This document shows positions 15,622-28,798 of a stretch of 64,000 nucleotides of DNA, one piece after another (position 1 is the stretch's first letter; each line of letters opens with the position of its first letter). The stretch covers positions 1 through 64,000 of the forward strand of contig JAHECD010000001.1 of NCBI GenBank assembly GCA_024641945.1, read 5' to 3'. Origin of the DNA: Rubrivivax sp. GTDB lineage: Bacteria; Pseudomonadota; Gammaproteobacteria; Burkholderiales; Burkholderiaceae_C. Under the pieces are notes generated by a model. That model did not search any database. It was given only the letters and a program-made list of their open reading frames with translations, and had not been told where the DNA came from. A program made the translations under genes and the position numbers.

Positions 15622-16692
15622 TCAGCGCACCTGCAGGCGCTTTGCGCCGGGTGCCGATGCCGAGATCTCGCCGATATCGGCCACCGCGTCGAACCCGTGA
15701 CGGCGGAAGACGGCGATGACGGCGTCGACGCTGCCTGCATCGCAAGAGACGAGCAACCCGCCGCTGGTCTGGGGGTCGGTGAGCAGGGCTTGGTCCTCGG
15801 GCGCAAATCCGGCCGGCAGCCCGATATCGGCGCCATATCCCGCCCAGTTGCGGCCTGACGCGCCAGTGACCATGCCCTGCGACGCGAGCTCACGCACGCC
15901 GGCGAGCAATGGCACGCGGGCCCAGTCGATCACCACCGTGGCCCGTGCCCCGCGCGCGACTTCGAGCGCGTGCCCGGCCAATCCGAAGCCAGTGACGTCG
16001 GTCAGCGCGTGCACACCGGGCAGCGCCGCCAGTTCGGGGCCGGGCGTGTTCAGCCGGGTCGTGCTGGCGATCATCTGCGCATAACCGGCGGCGCTCAGTT
16101 GCTCCTTCTTCAGCGCGGCGGACAGCACGCCCACGCCGAGCGGCTTGCCCAGGACGAGGCGGTCGCCCACCCGCGCATCCGCATTGCGCTTGACACGCTT
16201 GGGATGCACCAGCCCCAGTGCCACGAGGCCGTAGATGGCCTCGACGGAGTCGATCGTGTGTCCACCGGCGATCGGGATGCCGGCGGCGCGGCAGACGGCA
16301 TTGCCACCTTCGAGCACACGCCCGATAGTGGCCGTGGACAGCACGTTGATCGGCATGCCCACGAGCGCCAGCGCCATGATCGGCGTGCCGCCCATCGCAT
16401 ACACGTCGCTGATCGCATTGGTCGCCGCAATGCGGCCGAACTCGTACGGGTCGTCGACGATCGGCATGAAAAAATCCGTCGTCGCGATCAGCGCCTGCTC
16501 GTCATTGAGCTGGTAGACCGCCGCATCGTCCGCGGTCTCGATGCCCACCAGCAATTGGGGCGGGATGGGCATGTTGGTCGTGCCCTTCAGGATCTCGCTG
16601 AGGACGCCCGGCGCAATCTTGCAGCCGCAACCGCCCCCATGCGAAAGCGACGTGAGGCGGGGTTCGGTCAGGGGCTTGTCTGGGGCATTCAT
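15622..16692 (-). CDS. selD: selenide, water dikinase (SelD/SenC-type, Cys form)
   Basis: LSHGGGCGCKIAPGVLSEIL N-terminal signature with Cys at the catalytic site, TTDFFMPIVDDPYEFGRIAATNAISDVYAMGG; linked to senB/senA. Confidence 0.93.
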   Translation of the reverse strand: MNAPDKPLTEPRLTSLSHGGGCGCKIAPGVLSEILKGTTNMPIPPQLLVGIETADDAAVYQLNDEQALIATTDFFMPIVDDPYEFGRIAATNAISDVYAMGGTPIMALALVGMPINVLSTATIGRVLEGGNAVCRAAGIPIAGGHTIDSVEAIYGLVALGLVHPKRVKRNADARVGDRLVLGKPLGVGVLSAALKKEQLSAAGYAQMIASTTRLNTPGPELAALPGVHALTDVTGFGLAGHALEVARGARATVVIDWARVPLLAGVRELASQGMVTGASGRNWAGYGADIGLPAGFAPEDQALLTDPQTSGGLLVSCDAGSVDAVIAVFRRHGFDAVADIGEISASAPGAKRLQVR

Positions 16693-17675
16693 CGGGGCGT
16701 CTCCGTTGGGCGGGGCATCGGGCCGGTCAGCAGGTTGCGCATCAGTTGGCGCAGCGTCGATCGTTCGTGCGCCGGCTCGAAAAGCGGCGCTCGACGCGCA
16801 CATTGCGCGGCCAGTCCTCGCAGCATAGCCGCATCGTCTCGGGCGCGCATGAGCAGCGACGCAAGGCCTGCCGCGTCACCGGGCTCGAAGTAGCCGCGAT
16901 AGCCGTGCCCGAGCATGCCCACATTGCCCGGGATGCGCGAGGCGATGACCGGCGTGCCGCTGCGTACCGCTTCCATCACCACGTGGGCGCCGCCCTCCAT
17001 GCGGCTGCAATGCACGAGCACATGGGCGCGCTGGATGCCGGCACGGGTGTCGCGGTGCGACCGGGAGCCAACCCAGCGGTAGGTGCGCTGTGAGCGTGCG
17101 AGGGCGATCGCCTGGGCGCCGAGGGATTCGTCGAGCGCCGCGCCGATGTGGTCCAGCACGATGTCGGCGCGCCCCGCGAGTGCGCGGGCCGCAGCGAAGA
17201 ACGTCTGCGGGTCTTTCTCTTCGCGCAGATGGCCCACCATCAGGGCGCGCAACCGGCGCGATGTCTTTTCCAGCGTCTGCCACGCCGTGCACGACTGAAA
17301 GCACACGACGGTTTTGGCTCGGTAGGCTGCAGGCACGTCCTGCGGTGCCCCCTCGTGCAGCACGACCAGACGGTCGGCGAGTTCGAGCGAGCGCTGGGCG
17401 GCGGCGTCGCCGAGGATGTCGCGGTACAGGTCGGTGCCGGTGAGGGCGACGACGAGCGGGCGGCGAACGATCTGTCGCGACCATTGCGCGATGGATTCGG
17501 CGGAGCGGCGCGCGTGCAGCGCGATCATGGCGTCATCGGGCTGGCCGTCCCACCGTGCCACCAGGCGCACCCGATAATCGGCCGCCAACATGCGCGCCCA
17601 GCGCGACGCTGTCTGCCAGTTGCCGTTGTTGGCGCTGGCGAATGCAGGCGTCACAAGGCACAAGCTGGGCTTCAT
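16689..17675 (-). CDS. senB: glycosyltransferase, selenosugar synthase SenB-like
   Basis: GT4/GT-B-like MKPSLCLVTPAFASANNGNWQTASRWARML...; 4-nt overlap with selD start; divergent from EgtB-like gene, matching published sen cluster content. Confidence 0.8.
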   Translation of the reverse strand: MKPSLCLVTPAFASANNGNWQTASRWARMLAADYRVRLVARWDGQPDDAMIALHARRSAESIAQWSRQIVRRPLVVALTGTDLYRDILGDAAAQRSLELADRLVVLHEGAPQDVPAAYRAKTVVCFQSCTAWQTLEKTSRRLRALMVGHLREEKDPQTFFAAARALAGRADIVLDHIGAALDESLGAQAIALARSQRTYRWVGSRSHRDTRAGIQRAHVLVHCSRMEGGAHVVMEAVRSGTPVIASRIPGNVGMLGHGYRGYFEPGDAAGLASLLMRARDDAAMLRGLAAQCARRAPLFEPAHERSTLRQLMRNLLTGPMPRPTETPR

Positions 17676-17695: not shown

Positions 17696-18916
17696 ATGTC
17701 GACTTCGATGGTTCACCCTGCGACCGCCTTGCGACACGCCGACCCTGCGGCGATCAGCCGCGCCCGCCGCACGGCCCGCGCAAGGCTGCTGCGGTTGTTC
17801 GAGGGCTACGAGCAGGCATTGCCGCACGGGCTGCCGGTGCCGTACGCGCCGGAATTGAATCCCCCGCTTTGGGAACTGGGTCACATCGGGTGGTTCGAGG
17901 AATTCTGGCTCGCACGCAATCCGCAGCGCCTGGGCGGCACCGCTGCCGACCCCGACGTCGCCCGCGCGGACAGTGCACTGCGCGGCGCCGACGCGCTCTA
18001 CCACTCGTCCAAGGTGGCGCACACAACACGCTGGCACCTTCCGCTGCCCGACGCGACACGCACGCGCCGCTATCTGCAGCAGGTGCGCGACCGGTCCGAC
18101 ACGCTGCTGGCGCAGACGCCCGCGGACGACAGCGCGCTGTACTTCCACCGTCTGGCGCTGGTGCACGAACTCATGCACCTCGAAGCATGGACCTACATGG
18201 CGCAGCACCTGGCGCTCGACATCGCATCGGCGATCGACGTGGTCCAACCGCCACCGACAACCCGGGACGGCGAGCAAACGTTCGAGGGCGGGTCGCACGT
18301 GATGGGCCAGGCGGATTCGGGTTTCGCCTTCGACAACGAAGGGGGCGAGCACCTGGTCGAGGTCGACCCCTTCACGGTCGACAACGCCCCGGTGACCTGG
18401 GCACGCTACCTGCCGTTCGTGGAGTCCGGTGGCTACGGTGACGAGTCGCTGTGGTCAAGCGAAGGCTGGGCGTGGCGCAAACGATCGAGCACGGGTCGGC
18501 CGCGCTACCTGATCCAGGACGACGGCCTCTGGCAGCGTGCCTGCTTCGGGCGCTGGGAACCGATCGACCCGACGCGGCCCGCGGTCAACCTCAGCCTGCA
18601 CGAGGCCCAGGCCTGGTGCCGCTGGGCAGGGCGACGACTTCCGACCGAAACCGAATGGGAATTCGCGGCGATACAACAGGGCGGCGCCTTCGAGTGGGGC
18701 CAGGTGTGGGAATGGACGGCCAGCCCGTTCTCGCCCTATCCCGGTTTCGTGGCGCACCCGTACCGCGACTACTCGCAGCCCTGGTTCGATGGCCGCCCAG
18801 TCCTGCGTGGCGCATCGTTCGCCACCGCGCCCGAGATGAAACATCCGCGGTACCGCAACTATTTCACCGCCGATCGCACGGACATCTTCGCGGGCTTTCG
18901 CAGCTGCGCCTGCTGA
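17696..18916 (+). CDS. senA: EgtB-like DinB/FGE-sulfatase fusion enzyme, selenoneine synthase SenA-like
   Basis: DinB-like metal motifs (LWELGHIGWFEEFW, LVHELMHLEAW) and FGE domain (WCRWAGRRLPTETEWEFAA, VWEWTASPF, GFRSC) typical of EgtB/SenA family; next to senB and selD. Confidence 0.82.
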   Translation: MSTSMVHPATALRHADPAAISRARRTARARLLRLFEGYEQALPHGLPVPYAPELNPPLWELGHIGWFEEFWLARNPQRLGGTAADPDVARADSALRGADALYHSSKVAHTTRWHLPLPDATRTRRYLQQVRDRSDTLLAQTPADDSALYFHRLALVHELMHLEAWTYMAQHLALDIASAIDVVQPPPTTRDGEQTFEGGSHVMGQADSGFAFDNEGGEHLVEVDPFTVDNAPVTWARYLPFVESGGYGDESLWSSEGWAWRKRSSTGRPRYLIQDDGLWQRACFGRWEPIDPTRPAVNLSLHEAQAWCRWAGRRLPTETEWEFAAIQQGGAFEWGQVWEWTASPFSPYPGFVAHPYRDYSQPWFDGRPVLRGASFATAPEMKHPRYRNYFTADRTDIFAGFRSCAC

Positions 18917-19035: not shown

Positions 19036-19920
19036 ATGAACTTGCACCCACGCCACCTCGTTTCGGCAACCGCGCTGGCAGCCGCCGTGCTGGCCCTGCC
19101 CGCCAGCGCCGTGACGCTCGTCGGGTTGACCGCGGATGGACGCATTGCCGCGTTCGACAGTGCCACGCCGTCGTCGGCCGCCACGGTGTCGATCACTGGC
19201 CTGATGGCCGGCGATTCGCTGGTGGGGATCGACGTGCGCCCGGCCAACAATACGATCTACGGTGTCAGCCTGTCCAACCGCATCTACACGCTCGACAAGG
19301 CCACGGGCGCCGCGACCATGGTGGCGGCACTCGACGTTCCCGTGGTCAACGCGGATCTGAGCTACGGCGTGGACTTCAATCCGTCGGCCGACTTCGCCGG
19401 CGGCAGCTCGCTGCGGCTCGTCAGTTCGGCGGGCAGCAACTTTGCGATCAATTCGGTCACCGGCGTGGTGGGCAATGCGGCCAGCAACATTGGCACGGGC
19501 ATCACCAGCGTGGCCTACAGCAACTCGAAACCCAACCCGATGGCCGCACCGACATCGACGCAGCTGTACTACGTGGACAGCACACGCGACGTGCTGCGCG
19601 TGGCCACGGCCGCGTTCAACGCCCCGGTCATCAACGACGTCGGACCGCTGGGCCTGGACGTCGCGGACATCGGCGGGTTCGACCTGTCGGCCGGTGGCAT
19701 GGGCTATGGCGCCTTCGGGATGGCGGGCTCGTCCACGACCGGCATCTATGGTGTCGACATCGCGACCGGCGCAACCGCGCTGCTGGGCACCTACGACGGC
19801 AAGTTGACGGGCCTGACGATCGCCCCGGTGCCCGAGCCCGCGACCTACGCGCTGATGCTGGCCGGCTTGCTGACCGTCGGCATGGCGGGCCGCGCGCGCC
19901 GCACTCGCCGCGCCCGCTGA
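19036..19920 (+). CDS. DUF4394-like beta-propeller protein with PEP-CTERM sorting signal
   Basis: LVGLTADGRIAAFDSATPSSAATVSITGL...; C-terminus VPEPATYALMLAGLLTVGMAGRARRTRRAR. Confidence 0.85.
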   Translation: MNLHPRHLVSATALAAAVLALPASAVTLVGLTADGRIAAFDSATPSSAATVSITGLMAGDSLVGIDVRPANNTIYGVSLSNRIYTLDKATGAATMVAALDVPVVNADLSYGVDFNPSADFAGGSSLRLVSSAGSNFAINSVTGVVGNAASNIGTGITSVAYSNSKPNPMAAPTSTQLYYVDSTRDVLRVATAAFNAPVINDVGPLGLDVADIGGFDLSAGGMGYGAFGMAGSSTTGIYGVDIATGATALLGTYDGKLTGLTIAPVPEPATYALMLAGLLTVGMAGRARRTRRAR

Positions 19921-19966: not shown

Positions 19967-20929
19967 TCACGTGGCGGCAAAAACGGCGAACCGGCTTTCG
20001 GCATCGGTCCAGCATTGAACCGTGCCGTAGCCGGCGTCGCGCAACATCGCTTCGAAATCGGCCCGCCGGTACTTGTAGGAATTCTCGGTGTGCATGCGCT
20101 CGCCTGCGCCGAATCGCCGCTCGCCGCCGGGCCAACGCACGGTCGTGTCGACCCGCGCCTGCAAGTGCATCTCCACGCGCGACGCCTCGGCATTGAAGAG
20201 CGCCACGTGTTGCCACTGTCGGACCTGGAAATCCGACCCGAGCAGATCGTTCACGTGGTTCAGCAGGTTCAGATTGAATGCTGCGGTGACGCCGAGCGAA
20301 TCGTCGTACGCGGGCACCAGCACGTCGGCCGGTTTGGCCAGGTCGACGCCGATGAGAAGGTTCCCGCCCTGGGACTCGCGCCGCACCTGAATCAGGAAAT
20401 CGACCGCCTTGTCCGGCATGAAGTTGCCGATGCTCGAGCCCGGGTAAAAAACCGTGTGCGGGCCGTCGCCCGCCTGGGCGGGCAGGTTCAGGTGCGACGA
20501 GAAGTCGAGCCCGACACCCACCATGTCGATGGTCGGATGTTCGCGCTGCAGCGCATCAAGCGCCTGGCGCAGGAACTCGACCGAAATGTCCACGGCGACG
20601 TAACGGCGCGGTTGCAGCGCCGCGAACAAGCGGCCGGCCTTGGCGCAATTGCCCGCGCCCAGGTCGACGAGCGTGCGGCCGGTACCGAGCGTGCGCGCCA
20701 TCTCCGGCGCATGCGCAGCCAGGATCGCGGCCTCCGTGCGCGTGGGGTAGTACTCCCGCAGCTCGGTGATCGCGTCGAACAGGCGCGAGCCGAGTGGATC
20801 GTAGAAAAATTTGGGCGACACCGACGCACGATCGTCGAGCAGGCCTGCGGCGAGTTCTTCGCGCAACGCAGCCCTGTCCTCGTGATGAAGCTGGACAAAG
20901 CCAGGGCTGCGCACTGCGGACAGGTTCAT
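19967..20929 (-). CDS. egtD: L-histidine N(alpha)-methyltransferase
   Basis: 320 aa; FFYDPLGSRLFDAITELREYYPTRTEAAIL, DLGAGNCAKA, FYPGSSIGNF: EgtD motifs. Confidence 0.93.
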   Translation of the reverse strand: MNLSAVRSPGFVQLHHEDRAALREELAAGLLDDRASVSPKFFYDPLGSRLFDAITELREYYPTRTEAAILAAHAPEMARTLGTGRTLVDLGAGNCAKAGRLFAALQPRRYVAVDISVEFLRQALDALQREHPTIDMVGVGLDFSSHLNLPAQAGDGPHTVFYPGSSIGNFMPDKAVDFLIQVRRESQGGNLLIGVDLAKPADVLVPAYDDSLGVTAAFNLNLLNHVNDLLGSDFQVRQWQHVALFNAEASRVEMHLQARVDTTVRWPGGERRFGAGERMHTENSYKYRRADFEAMLRDAGYGTVQCWTDAESRFAVFAAT

Positions 20930-21017: not shown

Positions 21018-21881
21018 ATGACCGACCTGTCCCCCTCGCGCACCCTCAAGGCCCTGATGACCTGCGCGCTCGTCGCCTTTGGTGCGATGGCACACGCCCA
21101 GCAGGTTTTCCGCATCTCCGCCATTCCCGACGAATCGCCCACCGAACTGGCTCGCAAGGCCGCGCCGTTGATGAAGTACCTCGAAGCCAAGCTCGGGATG
21201 AAGGTGGAATACACACCCGTCACCGACTACGCCGCCTCGGTCGAGGCGCTGGTGAACAAGAAGATCGACATGGCATGGTTCGGCGGATTCACGTTTGTGC
21301 AGGCCAATGCTCGCTCGGGCGGCAAGGTGATCCCGATCGTGCAGCGTGAAGAAGACGAGAAGTTCAAGTCGGTGTTCATCACCTCGGACCCCGCGATCAA
21401 GACGCTCGCCGACCTCAAGGGCAAGGACGTGAGCTTCGGATCGCAAAGCAGCACCTCCGGCCACCTGATGCCGCGCAGCTTCCTGCTGCAAGCCGGCGTC
21501 GACCCCGACAAGGACTTCAAGCGCGTCGCTTTCAGCGGCGCGCACGACGCGACGATCGCCGCCGTGGCCTCAGGCAAGGTGCAGGCCGGCGCGTTGAACA
21601 TTTCGGTGTGGAACAAGTTCGTCGCCGACAAGAAGGTCGACACCGACAAGGTGACGGTTTTCTACACGACACCGCCTTACTACGATTACAACTGGTCGGT
21701 GCATGCCGACATGCCGGCGGCCGTTCGCGAGAAGCTGACCCAGGCGTTCCTGGCTCTCAGCAAGGACACCCCGGAAGGCAAGGAGATCCTCGACCTCCAG
21801 CGTGCCACGCGCTTCGTGCCGACCAAGGCCGAGAACTACAAGGGCATCGAGGCCGCTGCCAAGAGCGCCGGGCTGCTCTGA
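21018..21881 (+). CDS. PhnD-like ABC transporter substrate-binding protein, putative selenium oxyanion binding
   Basis: Signal peptide plus PhnD-family sequence (RISAIPDESPTELARKAAPLMKYLEAKLGMKVEYTPVTDYAASVEAL); genomic linkage to sen genes. Confidence 0.85.
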   Translation: MTDLSPSRTLKALMTCALVAFGAMAHAQQVFRISAIPDESPTELARKAAPLMKYLEAKLGMKVEYTPVTDYAASVEALVNKKIDMAWFGGFTFVQANARSGGKVIPIVQREEDEKFKSVFITSDPAIKTLADLKGKDVSFGSQSSTSGHLMPRSFLLQAGVDPDKDFKRVAFSGAHDATIAAVASGKVQAGALNISVWNKFVADKKVDTDKVTVFYTTPPYYDYNWSVHADMPAAVREKLTQAFLALSKDTPEGKEILDLQRATRFVPTKAENYKGIEAAAKSAGLL

Positions 21882-21891
21882 GCGCGCCCCG

Positions 21892-22731
21892 TTGAAGCTC
21901 GAGTTCCGCAACGCCAGCGCGCGGCATCCCGCTGCGCGCGCGGGCGCGCCGCCTGCGCTGCGTGGCGTCTCGTTCACGGTCGAGCGCGGCGAGCAGGTGG
22001 CGGTCATCGGACCGTCGGGTGCAGGCAAGACGACGCTGCTGCACGTGGCCGCAGCGGCGTTGCCGCCCGACGGCGGCCACGTGGCGCTCGACGGCCAGGT
22101 GCCCTGGGACGCGGCTGCCTCGGCGCTGAAGGCTTTGCGCGCGCGCCTGTTCCTCGCGCCACAGGTGCCGCCGCTCCCGCCACGCCAGCGCGTGGTCACC
22201 TCGGTGCTGGCCGGGCGGCTCCCGACCCAGCCGCTGTGGGCCAGCCTGCGGTCACTCTTCTACCCCGACGACATCCCGGCGGCATTCGACGCGCTGGAGC
22301 ACTTCGGGCTCGGCGACAAGCTCTTCGACCGCGTCGACCGTCTTTCCGGCGGCGAGCGCCAGCGCGTCGGATTGGCGCGGGCCCTGGTCTCGCCAGCCAC
22401 GCTGTGGCTGATCGACGAACCGCTGTCGGCACTCGATCCGACACGCGCCGCGCAGGCGCTGGCGGCGCTCACCGACGAGGCCCATGCCCGCAGCGCCACG
22501 CTGGTCGCCACGCTGCACCAGGTGGACGCCGCACTGGCCAACTTCCCCCGCATCGTCGGTCTGCGCGACGGTGCGCTGGCCTTCGACCTGCCGACCGCGC
22601 AAGTGACACGCGAGACGCTGCGCCAGCTCTACGCGCAGCATGAAGACGAGCTTGAAGGCGGCCACGCACGACCTGCCGCCGACACACCCGACGCCGCTGC
22701 ACCACGGCCTGCGGTCATGCATTGCCGCTGA
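21892..22731 (+). CDS. ABC transporter ATP-binding protein (PhnC-like)
   Basis: Walker A GPSGAGKTT, signature LSGGERQRVGLARAL, Walker B LWLIDEPLSALD; TTG start inferred after the binding-protein stop. Confidence 0.88.
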   Translation: MKLEFRNASARHPAARAGAPPALRGVSFTVERGEQVAVIGPSGAGKTTLLHVAAAALPPDGGHVALDGQVPWDAAASALKALRARLFLAPQVPPLPPRQRVVTSVLAGRLPTQPLWASLRSLFYPDDIPAAFDALEHFGLGDKLFDRVDRLSGGERQRVGLARALVSPATLWLIDEPLSALDPTRAAQALAALTDEAHARSATLVATLHQVDAALANFPRIVGLRDGALAFDLPTAQVTRETLRQLYAQHEDELEGGHARPAADTPDAAAPRPAVMHCR

Positions 22732-22735
22732 GACG

Positions 22736-23563
22736 ATGAGCGCCACCGCAGCGCCCTCACGCGACCCCGCCTGGATGCCGAGGGTCTTCTGGCTCGGCGC
22801 GGGATTGGTGCTGTTGTGGCCTGCCCTCGTGGCCACCGAGTTCAGGCCCTGGGTTCTGTTCGACGACAGTTCGCTGCAATCCACCCGGCGCTTTCTAGGC
22901 AGCTTTCTGCCGCCAGCCACCGGCACGGAATTCTTGGCGCTGGTCGCACGCGAGACCTGGCGCACCGTGGCCATCGCCACCGCCGGCATCACGCTGGCCC
23001 TGTTCATTGCGGTGCCGCTCACATTGCTGTCGACACGCGTGTTGTCGATATCCGCCCTGTCGGGACGCATGGCACGTGGCCCGTTTGCGTTGCGGCAGTT
23101 GCTGCGCTGGATGCTGATCGTGTTGCGCTCGATCCCCGAACTCGTGTGGGCGCTGGTCTTCGTGCGTGTGGTCGGCCTCGGGCCGACGGCAGGCGTTCTC
23201 GCCATCGCACTCACCTACGGAGGCATGCTGGGCAAGGTCTATGGCGAGATCCTCGAGTCGGGTGACGACCATGCCTCGGCGACGCTGTTGCGCCACGGCA
23301 GCGGCCGCCTGCAGGCGTTCTTCTATGGCGTGCTTCCCGGCAATGCTGCCGAGCTGACGAGCTACACCGTCTACCGTTGGGAGTGCGCGATCCGGTCGTC
23401 CGTGGTGCTCGGCTTCGTTGGCGCCGGGGGTCTAGGGCAGCAGATGGACAACTCGATGAAGATGTTCAACGGCGGCGAGGTCGCGACCATGCTGCTGGTC
23501 TTCATGGCGCTCGTGGCATTGGCCGACCACGTGAGCGCCTGGTTGAGACGCGGACTCGGTTGA
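22736..23563 (+). CDS. ABC transporter permease (PhnE-like) 1
   Basis: Multiple TM segments, RSIPELVWALVFVRVVGLGPTAG, ELTSYTVYRWECAIRSSVVLGFVGAGGLG (EAA-like loop). Confidence 0.88.
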   Translation: MSATAAPSRDPAWMPRVFWLGAGLVLLWPALVATEFRPWVLFDDSSLQSTRRFLGSFLPPATGTEFLALVARETWRTVAIATAGITLALFIAVPLTLLSTRVLSISALSGRMARGPFALRQLLRWMLIVLRSIPELVWALVFVRVVGLGPTAGVLAIALTYGGMLGKVYGEILESGDDHASATLLRHGSGRLQAFFYGVLPGNAAELTSYTVYRWECAIRSSVVLGFVGAGGLGQQMDNSMKMFNGGEVATMLLVFMALVALADHVSAWLRRGLG

Positions 23564-23565
23564 CG

Positions 23566-24387
23566 ATGCGCCCTGCCGCCAACGCACCCTACCGCCTGCC
23601 CCCGCCGCTGTTCGATGCGCGCTGCAAGGCCTGCTGGTTCACTGCCGGCATCGGGGCGCTCGTGGTCGCCAGCTTCTGGAGTCTCGACCTTCAATGGAGT
23701 GCCTTCTTCTCCGGCGACGCTGCGCGCAGCATGGGTCGCTTCCTCGGTGAATTCTTTCCGCCCGACCTCTCGGCGCCGTTTCTGGCCAAGGTGCGCACCG
23801 CCATGTGGGAAACGCTTGCGATGTCGGCCCTGGGCACGCTGCTGGCTGCGGCCGGCGGGCTGCTGCTTGCGGTGCCGGCCGCGCGCACGCACGACGGTGA
23901 CCGGGCCACCGCGCGGGCACCGACCCGCCTGCTGCTCAACGCCCTGCGCGCGGTGCCCGAACTCGTCTGGGCCGCGCTCCTGCTCATCTCCGCCGGTCTC
24001 GGCCCTTTTGCGGGCACGCTGGCGCTGGCTCTACACACGACGGGGGTTCTGGGTCGCCTCTTTGCGGAAGCCATCGAAAACGCACCACCGGGCCCCGGCT
24101 TCGCGCTGCGTACACAAGGGGTACCGAGCGGCCGCGTGCTGCTGTACGCCACCCTGCCGCAGGTGCTGCCGCAGCTGATGAGCTACACGCTCTACCGCTG
24201 GGAAAACAACATCCGGGCCGCCGCTGTGCTGGGCGTGGTGGGCGCTGGCGGCCTGGGGCAGCTGCTCGCCTTTCACATGGGTCTCTTCCACATGGGCAAG
24301 ACCTGCACGGTCCTGGGCGCCATGGTGTTTCTCGTGGCCATCGTCGATATCGCGAGCTACGCCAGCCGGCGCTGGATGACACGCTGA
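23566..24387 (+). CDS. ABC transporter permease (PhnE-like) 2
   Basis: RAVPELVWAALLLISAGLGPFAGTLAL, QLMSYTLYRWENNIRAAAVLGVVGAGGLGQLL. Confidence 0.88.
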   Translation: MRPAANAPYRLPPPLFDARCKACWFTAGIGALVVASFWSLDLQWSAFFSGDAARSMGRFLGEFFPPDLSAPFLAKVRTAMWETLAMSALGTLLAAAGGLLLAVPAARTHDGDRATARAPTRLLLNALRAVPELVWAALLLISAGLGPFAGTLALALHTTGVLGRLFAEAIENAPPGPGFALRTQGVPSGRVLLYATLPQVLPQLMSYTLYRWENNIRAAAVLGVVGAGGLGQLLAFHMGLFHMGKTCTVLGAMVFLVAIVDIASYASRRWMTR

Positions 24388-24398
24388 ACGCGTGGTCG

Positions 24399-25316
24399 TC
24401 AACCCGCGTGCAGCGCACGCAGTCGATCGGCCGCGTCCATCGCCGCGAGATAACCGATCTCGATCGACCGCTGCCGGTATTGCGCGGACATGCCGGCGTA
24501 GTAGCCGGTATCAGGGTGCAGCAAAAGATCGGCCGCGCTGGCGTCAGGCGCCGTCAATGCACGTTTGCGCAGGTCGTTGGCGCGCCACGCTTCGGTGCCC
24601 GCCGGCGCCTTGTCTTCGTACGCTGAGGCGTCGACCGCCAGCACGCGCAGGGCGCCCATCGAACGCGCCAGTCGCACGGGCAGGGGCATCTGCAGATCGG
24701 CATCCACGTATTGGTCACCTCGGATACGCACCGGCGCAAATTCGCCCTCGATGGCACTCGAGGCCTGGACCGCAAGGCCGGCGTCGCCGAAATTGAATGC
24801 CGCCACCTCGTTGCTTGATTTCCTTTGCGCCACACAGGCCACGGCGGTGGGCAGGGCCTGCAGCGTGCGATCGCCGGTCAACTCACGTACCCACTGCGCC
24901 AGGCCGCTGCCGTCCAGCCTGACTTCAGACCCAATCGCCACGCTGGCCAGCCGCCAGGGCTGCAGATCCATCGACAGTTGCTCGAGCTGCGGCCCGCGCA
25001 GGCCGGCGGCGCGCAACACGCCCACCATCGCGCCAACAGACGCACCGACGATCAGATCGGGCACCAGGCCCAGTTCGTCGAGCGCCTTGACGACACCAAC
25101 ATGCACGAAGCCGCGCGGCCCGCCGGAACTGAAGACCCAGGCCGTGCCAAACGTGCGGCCAAAGGGACGAAAGTCGGGCGCACCCGCACCGCGATGGTCG
25201 ACATCCGCGTTCAGCGTACAGGCGCCGAACAACGGCGCGGCGCACAGTGACAGCACGTTTCGGCGGGAGACACCGGTCCGTGTTTGAATGGATGCGGATC
25301 GAAGGAGAGTTTCCAT
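24399..25316 (-). CDS. patatin-like phospholipase, Tat-like/lipoprotein N-terminus
   Basis: SSGGPRGFVHVGVVKALDELGLVPDLIVGASVGAMVG (GxSxG-like GASVG), SRRNVLSLCAAPLFGAC N-terminus. Confidence 0.85.
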   Translation of the reverse strand: METLLRSASIQTRTGVSRRNVLSLCAAPLFGACTLNADVDHRGAGAPDFRPFGRTFGTAWVFSSGGPRGFVHVGVVKALDELGLVPDLIVGASVGAMVGVLRAAGLRGPQLEQLSMDLQPWRLASVAIGSEVRLDGSGLAQWVRELTGDRTLQALPTAVACVAQRKSSNEVAAFNFGDAGLAVQASSAIEGEFAPVRIRGDQYVDADLQMPLPVRLARSMGALRVLAVDASAYEDKAPAGTEAWRANDLRKRALTAPDASAADLLLHPDTGYYAGMSAQYRQRSIEIGYLAAMDAADRLRALHAG

Positions 25317-25977
25317 GCGACGCTGGATTGTCTGGTGCTGTCTGGGCGGCCTGGCCGCACTGCTGAGTGCGTGCGGAACGCCGTATGCGACCGTGACCAA
25401 TGCCACCGGAGAACCGGTCATGTTGCTCGGCAGAGACCCCGTAGCCTACTTCACGCGCGGTGAACCGGTGCGCGGAAAGCCCGAATTCAAGGCCGTTCTG
25501 CCCGATCGGGTCTATTACTTCGAATCAGCCGAGCACCGCACCAAATTCCTGGCCGACCCGCTGAAATACGAGCCGCAATACGGAGGGTTCTGCGCGAGCG
25601 GCGCGGCCTTCGCACTCAAGTTGGGGAGCGACCCGAGTGCGTGGCAAATCGAGAACGGGCGCCTGTTCATCTTTGGAGACGTCCTCGGAAAGACCGCATG
25701 GCAACTCGACCCTGCCTGGAACATCGCCCACGCCGACCGCCTTTGGCCCGAAGCCCGCGAACGCGGCTGGCGTCTGCAGACGCTCACGCGCTATGTCGAC
25801 AAGGTGCCGCACTACCTGACCGGCGCGCAGATTCGAGCGGAATACGAACGCCAATATCCTGGCCGGCCATGGCCCGCCTACGACACTGGCGGCATGTTGA
25901 CCAACCTTTTCTTGAAGCCGCCTGGCTGGCGAGCCGCTGAAGGATTCGGGCAACCTGCGATGGGCTATCCACCGTAG
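25315..25977 (+). CDS. YHS domain-containing lipoprotein 1
   Basis: Lipobox LLSACG; YHS core LLGRDPVAYFTRGEPVRGKPEF...YYFESAEHRTKFLADPLKYEPQYGGFCA. Confidence 0.85.
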   Translation: MRRWIVWCCLGGLAALLSACGTPYATVTNATGEPVMLLGRDPVAYFTRGEPVRGKPEFKAVLPDRVYYFESAEHRTKFLADPLKYEPQYGGFCASGAAFALKLGSDPSAWQIENGRLFIFGDVLGKTAWQLDPAWNIAHADRLWPEARERGWRLQTLTRYVDKVPHYLTGAQIRAEYERQYPGRPWPAYDTGGMLTNLFLKPPGWRAAEGFGQPAMGYPP

Positions 25978-25993
25978 TCCGCCCATTTGCGAC

Positions 25994-26611
25994 TCAGGGT
26001 GCCTTGGCCTTGGCCGCGGCGACCGCGCGCGCCAGTTCCTCGCCGCTCTTGTAGTGCGGCACACGAAAGATCAGACGCTTCGTGCGCTGAACAAAGCTGT
26101 TGCTGCCGGCCACCTCGTCGGCCCAGTAGCGGTCGGCCAGTACCGTGTTGCCCTTGACGTCGAGTTCAAACGCCGCCTTCGACCCGGCGCCGCCGAAGAT
26201 GAACAGTCGGCCGCCATCGATGCGCCAGGTATCGGCATCACCGCCCCAGGGAATGCCGTAGACGATGCCATCGGCGCAAAAGCCCCCGTACTGTGGGAGG
26301 TACTTCTTGGGGTCGCGGTCGAACATCGCCTTGTGCTCCGCACTCGCAAAGCGGAAGGTCACGCCTTCGTAGACGCTGCTGAATTGCGGCAACCCGACCG
26401 CGTGGTGGCCGAGTGTCCAGTACGCCACGACGTCGTGGCCAGCCAGCATCACGCGGTCGTCGCCGCCCATGGCGATGGCATTGACGGGCTTGAGCGCCGT
26501 CGAGGGGTTCTGCGCCATCATCGCACTGCAACCCGAAAGGGCCAACGCCGCCACGGCCGCCAAACACGTGGCGCGGGCCAGGCGAACCAGGGCTGTCGAA
26601 GTCGGGGTCAT
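25994..26611 (-). CDS. YHS domain-containing lipoprotein 2
   Basis: Lipobox LALSGCS; LAGHDVVAYWTLGHHAVGLPQF...FRFASAEHKAMFDRDPKKYLPQYGGFCADG. Confidence 0.85.
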   Translation of the reverse strand: MTPTSTALVRLARATCLAAVAALALSGCSAMMAQNPSTALKPVNAIAMGGDDRVMLAGHDVVAYWTLGHHAVGLPQFSSVYEGVTFRFASAEHKAMFDRDPKKYLPQYGGFCADGIVYGIPWGGDADTWRIDGGRLFIFGGAGSKAAFELDVKGNTVLADRYWADEVAGSNSFVQRTKRLIFRVPHYKSGEELARAVAAAKAKAP

Positions 26612-27951
26612 GCGGGTACTCCTTCTGACAAGTGATTGTGCGGCGTGAGGTTGGCCGGCGAAACAGGCTCGTCCGTAAACGGCGATGGCCATCCGAGCAG
26701 TGCGCTCGCCTGCTCGAACCGGCGGCGCAGATCGTCGCGGTCGCGACCGCCCAGGTGCAGGATGCCGTAGCGGTAGCTGCCGAGCCACTTGAAGTCGCGC
26801 TCGAGCGCGTGGCCGGCCTTCGGCATCACGAACAGCAACGCGTCGGGAAAGGCGTCGTACAGGGCGCGTTGCTGCGCCGACGTCGGCATGGCGGGCACCT
26901 CGTGCGGCCCGAAGGCGCGGTACACGAAGCTGGCCGCCGCACCGGCAGTTGGGGCACCGCGCGTCAAGGCCGCCGGGTCGCCGCCCGTGGCGAGTTCGAG
27001 CGCCATGGCGTGCGGGTCAAGGCCCTGCACGCGGCGGTAAAGATCGCCGAACTGGGAGGCCAGACGCGGATTGAATTCGATCACCGACAGCTTGCCGCTG
27101 CGGGCGTCGTGGAAGAACTCCATGTTGAAGAAGCCATGGTCGAATCCGATCGCCGCCAGGAAACGCTGCGCGACCGCGGCCGCCTGGTCCACCACGGGCT
27201 TGGGCAAACGCCCCGGCAATTCGAAACGCATGAAAGCCTGGGTGCCGGGAAACATGTGCGCATCCACCACGCCCAGCACGTGCACCCGGCCCTTGCGGAC
27301 CCAACCGTCGAGGTTGTACTGGGCCGCCTTCACGGGCTCCTCGAGCATCAGCCGATGGGCGGTACCGGCCTCAGGCAAGAGTCGGCGAGAAACCCTTTCG
27401 AAGGGTTCGACGAGACGCCGGATGACCCACAATTCACGTCGTCCGAAGCGGGTGTGCGCGGTCAGGTCGGCATGGTCGTCCACGCAGCGCGCCAGTACCG
27501 AGAAGGCCGCCTTCACCGGCTTGACAAAGCTCGGGTACTCGATGACTTCGGGAATCGGCCCGCCATATTCCGCGTCGAGCGCGGCAAAGCGAATGTTCGC
27601 CTCTGGGCAGACCTGTTGAAGGACGTGGCGCGCATGGAGCTTGTGCTGGCAGGCGACCACGGCCTCGGGCGCGGTGCCGGGCAGCCCGGCGGACCGTGCC
27701 GTGAGGGCTGCCGCAAGAGCCCCGAACTGTTCGTGGTGCGACAACACCCCCGCCCATCGACGGCGTCGTGCGCGCGCGGCTTGCCGGCTGGCGAATCGAT
27801 CGAGGTCGAAACCGATCAGGCGCGCATTGCTCGGAAAGGTGAAGAGATCGAACCCGGCACGGTCATGCCCGTACCGGCGCTGCAGCCGCGCATGCGCGAG
27901 CGCGTCCCAGTCGTAGTCGAACAACAGCCCCACACGGGGAGCAGCGGTCAT
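26608..27951 (-). CDS. ATP-grasp domain protein
   Basis: SFVKPVKAAFSV, GFFNMEFFHDARSGKLSVIEFNPRLASQFGDLYRRV: ATP-grasp ligase motifs; 4-nt overlaps with both neighbours. Confidence 0.82.
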   Translation of the reverse strand: MTAAPRVGLLFDYDWDALAHARLQRRYGHDRAGFDLFTFPSNARLIGFDLDRFASRQAARARRRRWAGVLSHHEQFGALAAALTARSAGLPGTAPEAVVACQHKLHARHVLQQVCPEANIRFAALDAEYGGPIPEVIEYPSFVKPVKAAFSVLARCVDDHADLTAHTRFGRRELWVIRRLVEPFERVSRRLLPEAGTAHRLMLEEPVKAAQYNLDGWVRKGRVHVLGVVDAHMFPGTQAFMRFELPGRLPKPVVDQAAAVAQRFLAAIGFDHGFFNMEFFHDARSGKLSVIEFNPRLASQFGDLYRRVQGLDPHAMALELATGGDPAALTRGAPTAGAAASFVYRAFGPHEVPAMPTSAQQRALYDAFPDALLFVMPKAGHALERDFKWLGSYRYGILHLGGRDRDDLRRRFEQASALLGWPSPFTDEPVSPANLTPHNHLSEGVPA

Positions 27952-28682
27952 GGCGACCTCGACCCGCGCCGACGCCAGGACCGGATGCACCAGCGGCCGA
28001 CCCATGGCAACAGTGCCAGCGCCGTCAGGCCGGCCGCAACCTGCCAAGCGGGCACGCCGGACGCCGAGCCAAGAGACCAGTCGGCGAGACCGGCGCCCGC
28101 GGTGGCGTAGAGCGCGCTGCCCGCCAGCATCCCGAGTGCGCTGACCCAGAAGAACGACCAGGCCGACATGGACGAAAGGCCCATCAATGGATTGACCAGC
28201 GCGTAGGGGATCACCGGCGCCAGTCGGAGCGAGAACAGGTACAGATGGCCGTCTTGCTTCAGGCCCGCATCGACCGCCGCCAGGCGCGCACCGAGGCGCG
28301 TGCGCACCCGGTCGCGGAGCACGTGGCGCGCCAATCCGAACGACAACGTGGCGCCCGCGGCCGACATCACCGCCACGAGCAGTGTTCCCCACCAGGCGCC
28401 GAAAACCGCTCCGGCGCCAAGGGCAAGTACTGAACACCCCGGCATGGCGAGTGCGGACATCAATCCGAAGGCCAGGCAGAACGCACAGACTGCCGCCAGC
28501 GGATCACGGCGGTGCCAGGCGCGCGCGTCCTCGTGGCCGGAGCGAAGCAGCGACGACAGGCTGTCCGCCGACGGCAGGTGGGGCATCAGCAGCCAAAGCG
28601 CCGCGCCGATCACCAGCAACAGAGCCGCTCCCGCCATGAGAGCACGGCGGTGCGGTGTGGGTCGGCATGCAGGCATGTGCAT
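27948..28682 (-). CDS. TVP38/TMEM64 (VTT/DedA-like) membrane protein
   Basis: Hydrophobic protein; MSALAMPGCSVLALGAGAVFGAWWGTLLVAVMSAAGATLSFGLAR, LRLAPVIPYALVNPLMGLSSM. Confidence 0.85.
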   Translation of the reverse strand: MHMPACRPTPHRRALMAGAALLLVIGAALWLLMPHLPSADSLSSLLRSGHEDARAWHRRDPLAAVCAFCLAFGLMSALAMPGCSVLALGAGAVFGAWWGTLLVAVMSAAGATLSFGLARHVLRDRVRTRLGARLAAVDAGLKQDGHLYLFSLRLAPVIPYALVNPLMGLSSMSAWSFFWVSALGMLAGSALYATAGAGLADWSLGSASGVPAWQVAAGLTALALLPWVGRWCIRSWRRRGSRSP

Positions 28683-28746: not shown

Positions 28747-28774
28747 AAAAAAAGAAGAGCCGCTCGCAGGCGGC
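28747..28774 (-). terminator. Rho-independent terminator downstream of gltA
   Basis: Reverse strand GCCGC-CTGCGA-GCGGC-TCTTC-TTTTTTT. Confidence 0.75.
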
Positions 28775-28798
28775 CCTGGTGTCCCTGGGACGCCTGGG

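Follow-up and report, generated by a model that had tools for sequence, protein, structure and literature searches.

Relatives of an ATP-grasp enzyme encoded by Rubrivivax sp. are almost confined to genomes that also encode the selenosugar synthase SenB, which suggests that the enzyme belongs to a hitherto undescribed step in the metabolism of small selenium-containing molecules. Its gene lies in a 64,000 nucleotide stretch of DNA (assembly GCA_024641945.1, contig JAHECD010000001.1, positions 1 to 64,000), referred to here as the window, within a group of five genes at 24399–28682 that also encodes a VTT/TVP38 membrane protein, two YHS domain lipoproteins (YHS1 and YHS2) and a patatin-like phospholipase. 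Selenoneine is a selenium-containing antioxidant. Judged by profile matches above curated cut-offs, the window contains a complete selenoneine locus (SenA, SenB, SenC and EgtD) of the type established in Variovorax paradoxus, where SenA, SenB and SenC together with hercynine suffice for synthesis (PMC9814287, PMC10891094), whereas the ATP-grasp, YHS, patatin and VTT proteins are not part of the published pathway. The genes of the group, and a hairpin that precedes the operon, are as follows.

27948..28682, minus strand: VTT/TVP38 inner-membrane protein of the DedA superfamily, first gene of the operon (PF09335, 76 bits, cut-off 33.9)
26608..27951, minus strand: ATP-grasp ligase with a predicted L-amino-acid-ligase-like fold, core of the module (PF13535, 28.8 bits, cut-off 27)
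25994..26611, minus strand: YHS2 lipoprotein, with Cys112 in a GGFC motif and a C-terminal VPHY motif (NF041384, 94.2 bits, cut-off 70)
25315..25977, plus strand: YHS1 lipoprotein, paralogous to YHS2 but longer at its C-terminus (NF041384, 106.5 bits, cut-off 70)
24399..25316, minus strand: patatin-like phospholipase lipoprotein (PF01734, 76.4 bits, cut-off 27.7)
28756..28777, minus strand: intrinsic terminator-like hairpin 3' of gltA, separating the VTT-ATP-grasp-YHS2 operon from gltA-sdh

Co-occurrence of the ATP-grasp and SenB

Relatives of the ATP-grasp were collected in one scan of GTDB genome contigs, which gave 33 proteins of 53–73% identity, supplemented by genome searches that revealed a second subfamily scoring approximately 275–370 bits against the window protein. 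After removal of duplicates the subfamily-1 set comprised 49 loci, the fragments L156 and L164 being left out. Some deep nodes of the ATP-grasp tree are weakly supported.

Presence of the genes was compared across the same family (201 genomes) and across the order (300 genomes). In the family the ATP-grasp is found in 23 genomes, SenB in 74 and TIGR04553, the substrate-binding protein of a putative selenate transporter, in 91. SenB occurs in 22 of the 23 genomes with the ATP-grasp and in 52 of the 178 without it (5e-10, not corrected for phylogeny), while either SenB or the TIGR04553 transporter is present in all 23, and at the level of genera the ratio is 16/16 against 38/110 (3e-7). Across the order the corresponding figures are 33/35 and 66/265 (Fisher 7e-16, likewise uncorrected), or 19/20 and 32/114 by genus, and the association spans approximately 12 families and both ATP-grasp subfamilies. 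Limiting SenB to matches above the curated cut-off still gives 31/35 (1e-14). The SenB-negative exceptions in the order are G257 and G486, the latter containing only a distant member of the family. YHS2-type proteins behave similarly, with all 17 genomes that encode one positive for SenB and 16 of them positive for the ATP-grasp. A connection with selenium had been proposed from the sequence as possible but unproven; these ratios, together with the repeated linkage described below, support it strongly in the sense of a genomic association with the selenoneine pathway.

From these data we infer that the target of the module is probably a selenium or ergothioneine-type metabolite. The more specific reading, in which the ATP-grasp and YHS unit serves the selenoneine pathway as an accessory, either tailoring selenoneine-type metabolites or depending on them, is about as likely as not.

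Physical linkage to selenium genes

Genes for selenoneine synthesis (sen) or for the putative selenium ATP-binding cassette (ABC) transporter lie no more than 10.5 kb from the ATP-grasp in 26 of the 49 subfamily-1 loci, a proximity for which we estimate a chance of about half a per cent at a random place in a 4-Mb genome. In the window the sen genes, EgtD and the transporter are all on the far side of the patatin from the operon.

15622..16692, minus strand: SenC / SelD selenophosphate synthetase (TIGR00476, 422 bits; PRK00943, 537 bits)
16689..17675, minus strand: SenB selenosugar synthase (TIGR04348, 440 bits, cut-off 300)
17795..18916, plus strand: SenA selenoneine synthase, start uncertain (NF041186, 499 bits, cut-off 420)
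19967..20929, minus strand: EgtD histidine trimethylase, which makes hercynine (TIGR03438, 368 bits, cut-off 291)
21018..21881, plus strand: putative selenate ABC transporter substrate-binding protein (TIGR04553, 413 bits, cut-off 250)
21880..24387, plus strand: PhnC-like ATPase and two PhnE-like permeases of the putative selenium transporter (TIGR02315 and TIGR01097 matches)

The region between SenA and EgtD also encodes a PEP-CTERM-type protein (19036–19920) that has no conserved counterpart in the gene maps of other sen loci. The TIGR04553 transporter itself is found in 57 of the 74 SenB genomes of the family and in 34 of the 127 others (p 4e-12), and the two are often neighbours.

At least six types of junction were seen between the module and the sen or transporter genes.

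PhnE2 followed by SMR, methyltransferase (and EgtB) and ATP-grasp: L004, L010
PhnE2 followed by VTT and ATP-grasp: L024, L034
PhnE2 followed by ATP-grasp: L029, L128
EgtD divergent from VTT, ATP-grasp and YHS2: L014, L117, L121
gltA followed by ATP-grasp and YHS2, with the transporter inverted: the window, L002, L019
YHS2 convergent with PhnE2: L134
YHS2 convergent with SenA-SenB: L136
ATP-grasp of subfamily 2 convergent with SenB and next to SelD: G457, L151

The gap between ATP-grasp and SenB in G457 is 17 bp, and in L022 the genes for the ATP-grasp and for a SelD-linked oxidoreductase (TIGR03169) share 4 nt. Such repeated re-joining in different arrangements argues against a neighbourhood that has merely been inherited.

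As controls we used 24 sen loci from genomes that lack the ATP-grasp; L193 was excluded, its genome being ATP-grasp-positive. YHS2, the patatin, the class I methyltransferase and the SMR exporter were found in none of these 24 loci, and therefore travel with the ATP-grasp. Counted at 49% identity or higher, the methyltransferase is present in 14 of 23 ATP-grasp genomes and in none of 20 sen genomes without the ATP-grasp. It was not found in the genome from which the window derives, so it is not essential to the module.

The controls also separated a second set of genes from the module. Parts of a block consisting of a VTT-reductase, DUF547, DUF3047 and TIGR03169 are present in 5 of the 24 control loci, and since the block occurs beside sen genes without the ATP-grasp it was rejected as part of the module and treated as a separate selenium/arsenosugar-associated block. 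A fusion of VTT to a flavoprotein reductase (approximately 720 amino acids) accompanies DUF547, DUF3047 and TIGR03169 beside both arsenosugar genes and sen loci (L022:1718-10004, L134:10189-18514, L154, L160, L206); L206 is on contig C171 of the Rubrivivax genome itself, where DUF547, VTT-reductase and ArsS are found. This block bears on a proposal of general metalloid function, with the main role in arsenosugar or arsenolipid metabolism. ArsS, TIGR04283, TIGR04282 and MTAP adjoin the module in L022 and L134, some arsenosugar genes stand beside subfamily-2 ATP-grasps in L154 and L160, and ArsS occurs in 8 of 23 ATP-grasp genomes as against 15 of 178 (0.0014). However, ArsS is missing from the other 15 of those 23 genomes while SenB is present in 22, and the neighbouring block is separate for the reason given above, so that a primary role in arsenic metabolism appears highly improbable.

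Composition of the module

The sequence-only reading had pictured VTT, ATP-grasp and YHS as a conserved triad, and had counted restriction to close relatives against it. The module is in fact kept far beyond close relatives, but its conserved core is just the ATP-grasp and YHS, with VTT interchangeable, and a fixed triad was accordingly discarded. In 32 of the 49 subfamily-1 loci the next gene after the ATP-grasp is YHS2 (with a 4-nt overlap in 12), while in 15 the gene immediately before it is VTT (overlapping by 4 nt in 8). Other upstream partners in this subfamily are DUF547, EgtB, the class I methyltransferase, the SelD-associated oxidoreductase TIGR03169 and DUF3047. Among the named genes immediately upstream of a subfamily-2 ATP-grasp, this methyltransferase is the most frequent (5 loci), and a YHS protein or an LtaS-like sulfatase is found downstream in single cases.

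A block of SMR exporter, class I methyltransferase and true EgtB (TIGR03440) is inserted beside the ATP-grasp in many relatives (L004:7633-9960, L010, L019, L022). The presence of EgtB, which at 548 bits immediately precedes the ATP-grasp in four loci, raises the question of whether the ligase could make a sulfur or selenium precursor, for example a peptide resembling gamma-glutamyl-cysteine, for EgtB- or SenA-type enzymes instead of modifying their product. Some EgtB enzymes do use gamma-glutamylcysteine. Nevertheless, EgtB is near just 12 of the 49 loci and is absent from this window, and a selenosugar is the selenium donor of SenA, which removes the need for a peptide (PMC10891094, PMC9814287); we regard a precursor-forming role as improbable.

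Within the window the five genes, both 4-nt overlaps (VTT/ATP-grasp at 27948/27951 and ATP-grasp/YHS2 at 26608/26611) and the gap of exactly 16 bp between the convergent YHS1 and YHS2 (25978–25993) are all as first described from the sequence. VTT, ATP-grasp and YHS2 are probably a transcription unit of their own downstream of gltA, since gltA ends in the terminator-like hairpin (28777–28756, minus strand). The ATP-grasp gene is single copy in the 5.0-Mb genome, and Rfam and tRNA scans of the 64-kb window gave no matches. YHS1 has the same convergent position in L002, L004, L005 and L024. It is divergent from the patatin, and the longest likely starts of the two genes share a single CATG (25314–25316), which may be a real common start or a mis-called patatin start, the true one lying further in. 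A 2-bp overlap of these genes is also called in L004 (12663–12664) and L005 (12735–12736).

The ATP-grasp enzyme

An AlphaFold2 model of the ATP-grasp (predicted local distance difference test, pLDDT, 89.6; predicted template modelling score, pTM, 0.89) was compared with the PDB using Foldseek. The best matches were the L-amino-acid ligases 3vot, BacD (3vmm) and RizA (4wd3), with template modelling (TM) scores of 0.61–0.66, the top match being 3vot (E 1.6e-18, TMq 0.66). Residues K104, K144, E278 and the E292-x-N294-x-R296 motif are kept in all or nearly all of 71 ATP-grasp sequences, R296 presumably corresponding to the BacD arginine that stabilises the tetrahedral intermediate. From the predicted fold and the retained catalytic residues, the protein is therefore very likely to be an active ATP-dependent carboxylate ligase.

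The enzyme shares with BacD/YwfE, BL00235 and RizA the fold, the ATP/Mg-binding residues and the ExNxR residues, but it is only about 15% identical to them, its phosphate loop reads KPVKAAFS, and R242, Q300 and K388 are specific to its own family. Structure prediction, recommended in the sequence-only reading as a way to the substrate pocket, thus yielded an L-amino-acid-ligase-like fold but no substrate, which cannot be inferred from the fold at such low identity. Among curated L-amino-acid-ligase profiles none was matched, the only hits being PF13535 at 28.8 bits and PRK02186 at 57.9 bits (cut-off 625), and a PDB search with the single sequence gave just weak matches to carbamoyl-phosphate synthase.

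A distant ATP-grasp family from other orders (L174–L179) has the same catalytic core residues but scores just 150–176 bits, differs in its N-terminal region and lacks the typical R242, Q300 and K388. Its gene is always followed by one for a predicted hydrolase of approximately 680 amino acids with a CocE/NonD-type N-terminus, and this ligase-hydrolase pair was set aside as another system.

The YHS lipoproteins

YHS1 and YHS2 are paralogues, as had been recognised from the sequence, with about 38% identity and scores above the NF041384 cut-off, and inspection of their lipoboxes predicts that both are lipoproteins. A GGF/Y-C motif is invariant across the aligned relatives. The AlphaFold2 model of YHS2 (pLDDT 81.7) had no fold match in the PDB with E ≤ 0.001.

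The NF041384 family, "YHS domain-containing (seleno)protein", includes members with selenocysteine (Sec) in a GxU motif (PMC13188914). The GGF-C site of the window proteins fits this motif, but they carry Cys, are lipoproteins with an additional C-terminal VPHY motif and are coupled to an ATP-grasp gene. The match between the GxU site and Cys112 could be read to mean that the YHS lipoproteins carry selenium and that the ATP-grasp acts on them. A Cys/Sec position at QYGGFC had indeed been suggested from the sequence, but the codon is TGC in both window genes, every relative examined has Cys, and no match to SelB above cut-off was found in this genome; the selenoprotein reading was rejected on these grounds. 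In-frame stops flagged by the genome search in YHS relatives are gene ends, with no internal TGA. Because the YHS proteins have export signals, modification by a cytosolic ligase would also need to precede their secretion. The Sec version is largely refuted, and a selenoprotein system of any form seems extremely improbable.

Proposed role of the module

If the module does act on a selenoneine-type metabolite, its components could be ordered as follows. The cytosolic ATP-grasp would activate a carboxylate as an acyl phosphate and couple it with an amine. That carboxylate would most likely belong to selenoneine or its close kin ergothioneine and hercynine, of which just the carboxylate can react because the amine is blocked by trimethylation, and an amide or dipeptide conjugate would result. 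VTT, or the partner that replaces it in other species, may then carry the product, or else a lipid partner, through the inner membrane, and its binding or processing in the periplasm or at the outer membrane may fall to one or both YHS lipoproteins, with their one conserved Cys. The hypothesis of amide formation would fit the fold, the blocked betaine amine, the envelope partners and the neighbouring EgtB, EgtD and SenA genes. Which substrate is used, and what VTT and YHS do, is a tentative guess. It is similarly doubtful, though conceivable, that the outcome is a new selenometabolite, an amide- or peptide-linked selenoneine placed in or exported through the envelope by VTT and YHS, as a tailoring branch in a minority of selenoneine producers. 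The open-licence literature, a scope that leaves most subscription journals outside, contained no paper with both "selenoneine" and "ATP-grasp" and no module description for selenoneine with YHS, TVP38 or DUF547.

Several observations weigh against a role in selenium metabolism. The patatin, VTT, Mla and sulfatase partners would suit a lipid function that involves no selenium, and the fold likeness, at 15% identity, extends to PurK, PurT and biotin carboxylase, although these rank after the L-amino-acid ligases. Only about 30% of sen genomes carry the module, which must therefore be dispensable for making selenoneine. Many loci are unlinked to sen (for example G089, G181, G030 and G168), most subfamily-2 loci show no selenium or egt gene nearby, and the P values of the SenB association ignore shared ancestry.

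Such observations could be explained if the module modifies envelope lipids without selenium chemistry, the ATP-grasp attaching an amino acid to some lipid or its head group, VTT flipping the product and the patatin and YHS acting in the envelope, in which case the overlap with sen would reflect shared lineages and a common genomic island. In 20 loci a patatin is no more than 10.5 kb from the ATP-grasp, and MCE/Mla transporter genes are present in 10 loci, an LtaS-like sulfatase in 7 and a CDP-alcohol phosphatidyltransferase in 3. Most subfamily-2 loci are without sen genes nearby. In five loci (L012, L015, L026, L119 and L152) the ATP-grasp is found with the methyltransferase and an LtaS/sulfatase-like membrane protein in the absence of YHS, an arrangement that may represent a form of the module directed at lipids or the envelope. 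The window VTT carries PF09335, and its superfamily includes lipid flippases and scramblases (PMC10127716), with one DedA protein linked to selenite resistance (Ledgham 2005, as related in PMC10127716); VTT is, however, optional in the module. A lipid function also leaves unexplained why SenB co-occurs in 33/35 and 22/23 genomes, both within one family and across many, and why linkage to sen and transporter genes recurs in different arrangements, and no lipid gene is universal among the loci. For these reasons we consider a purely lipid-directed function rather unlikely.

A link to selenoneine would matter because very few selenium-containing small molecules are known in bacteria, namely selenoneine and ovoselenol. 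The YHS lipoproteins, from a family with known selenoprotein members, would also be tied by it to small-molecule selenium metabolism. The SenB-associated ligase provides a concrete gene with which to search for further selenometabolites.

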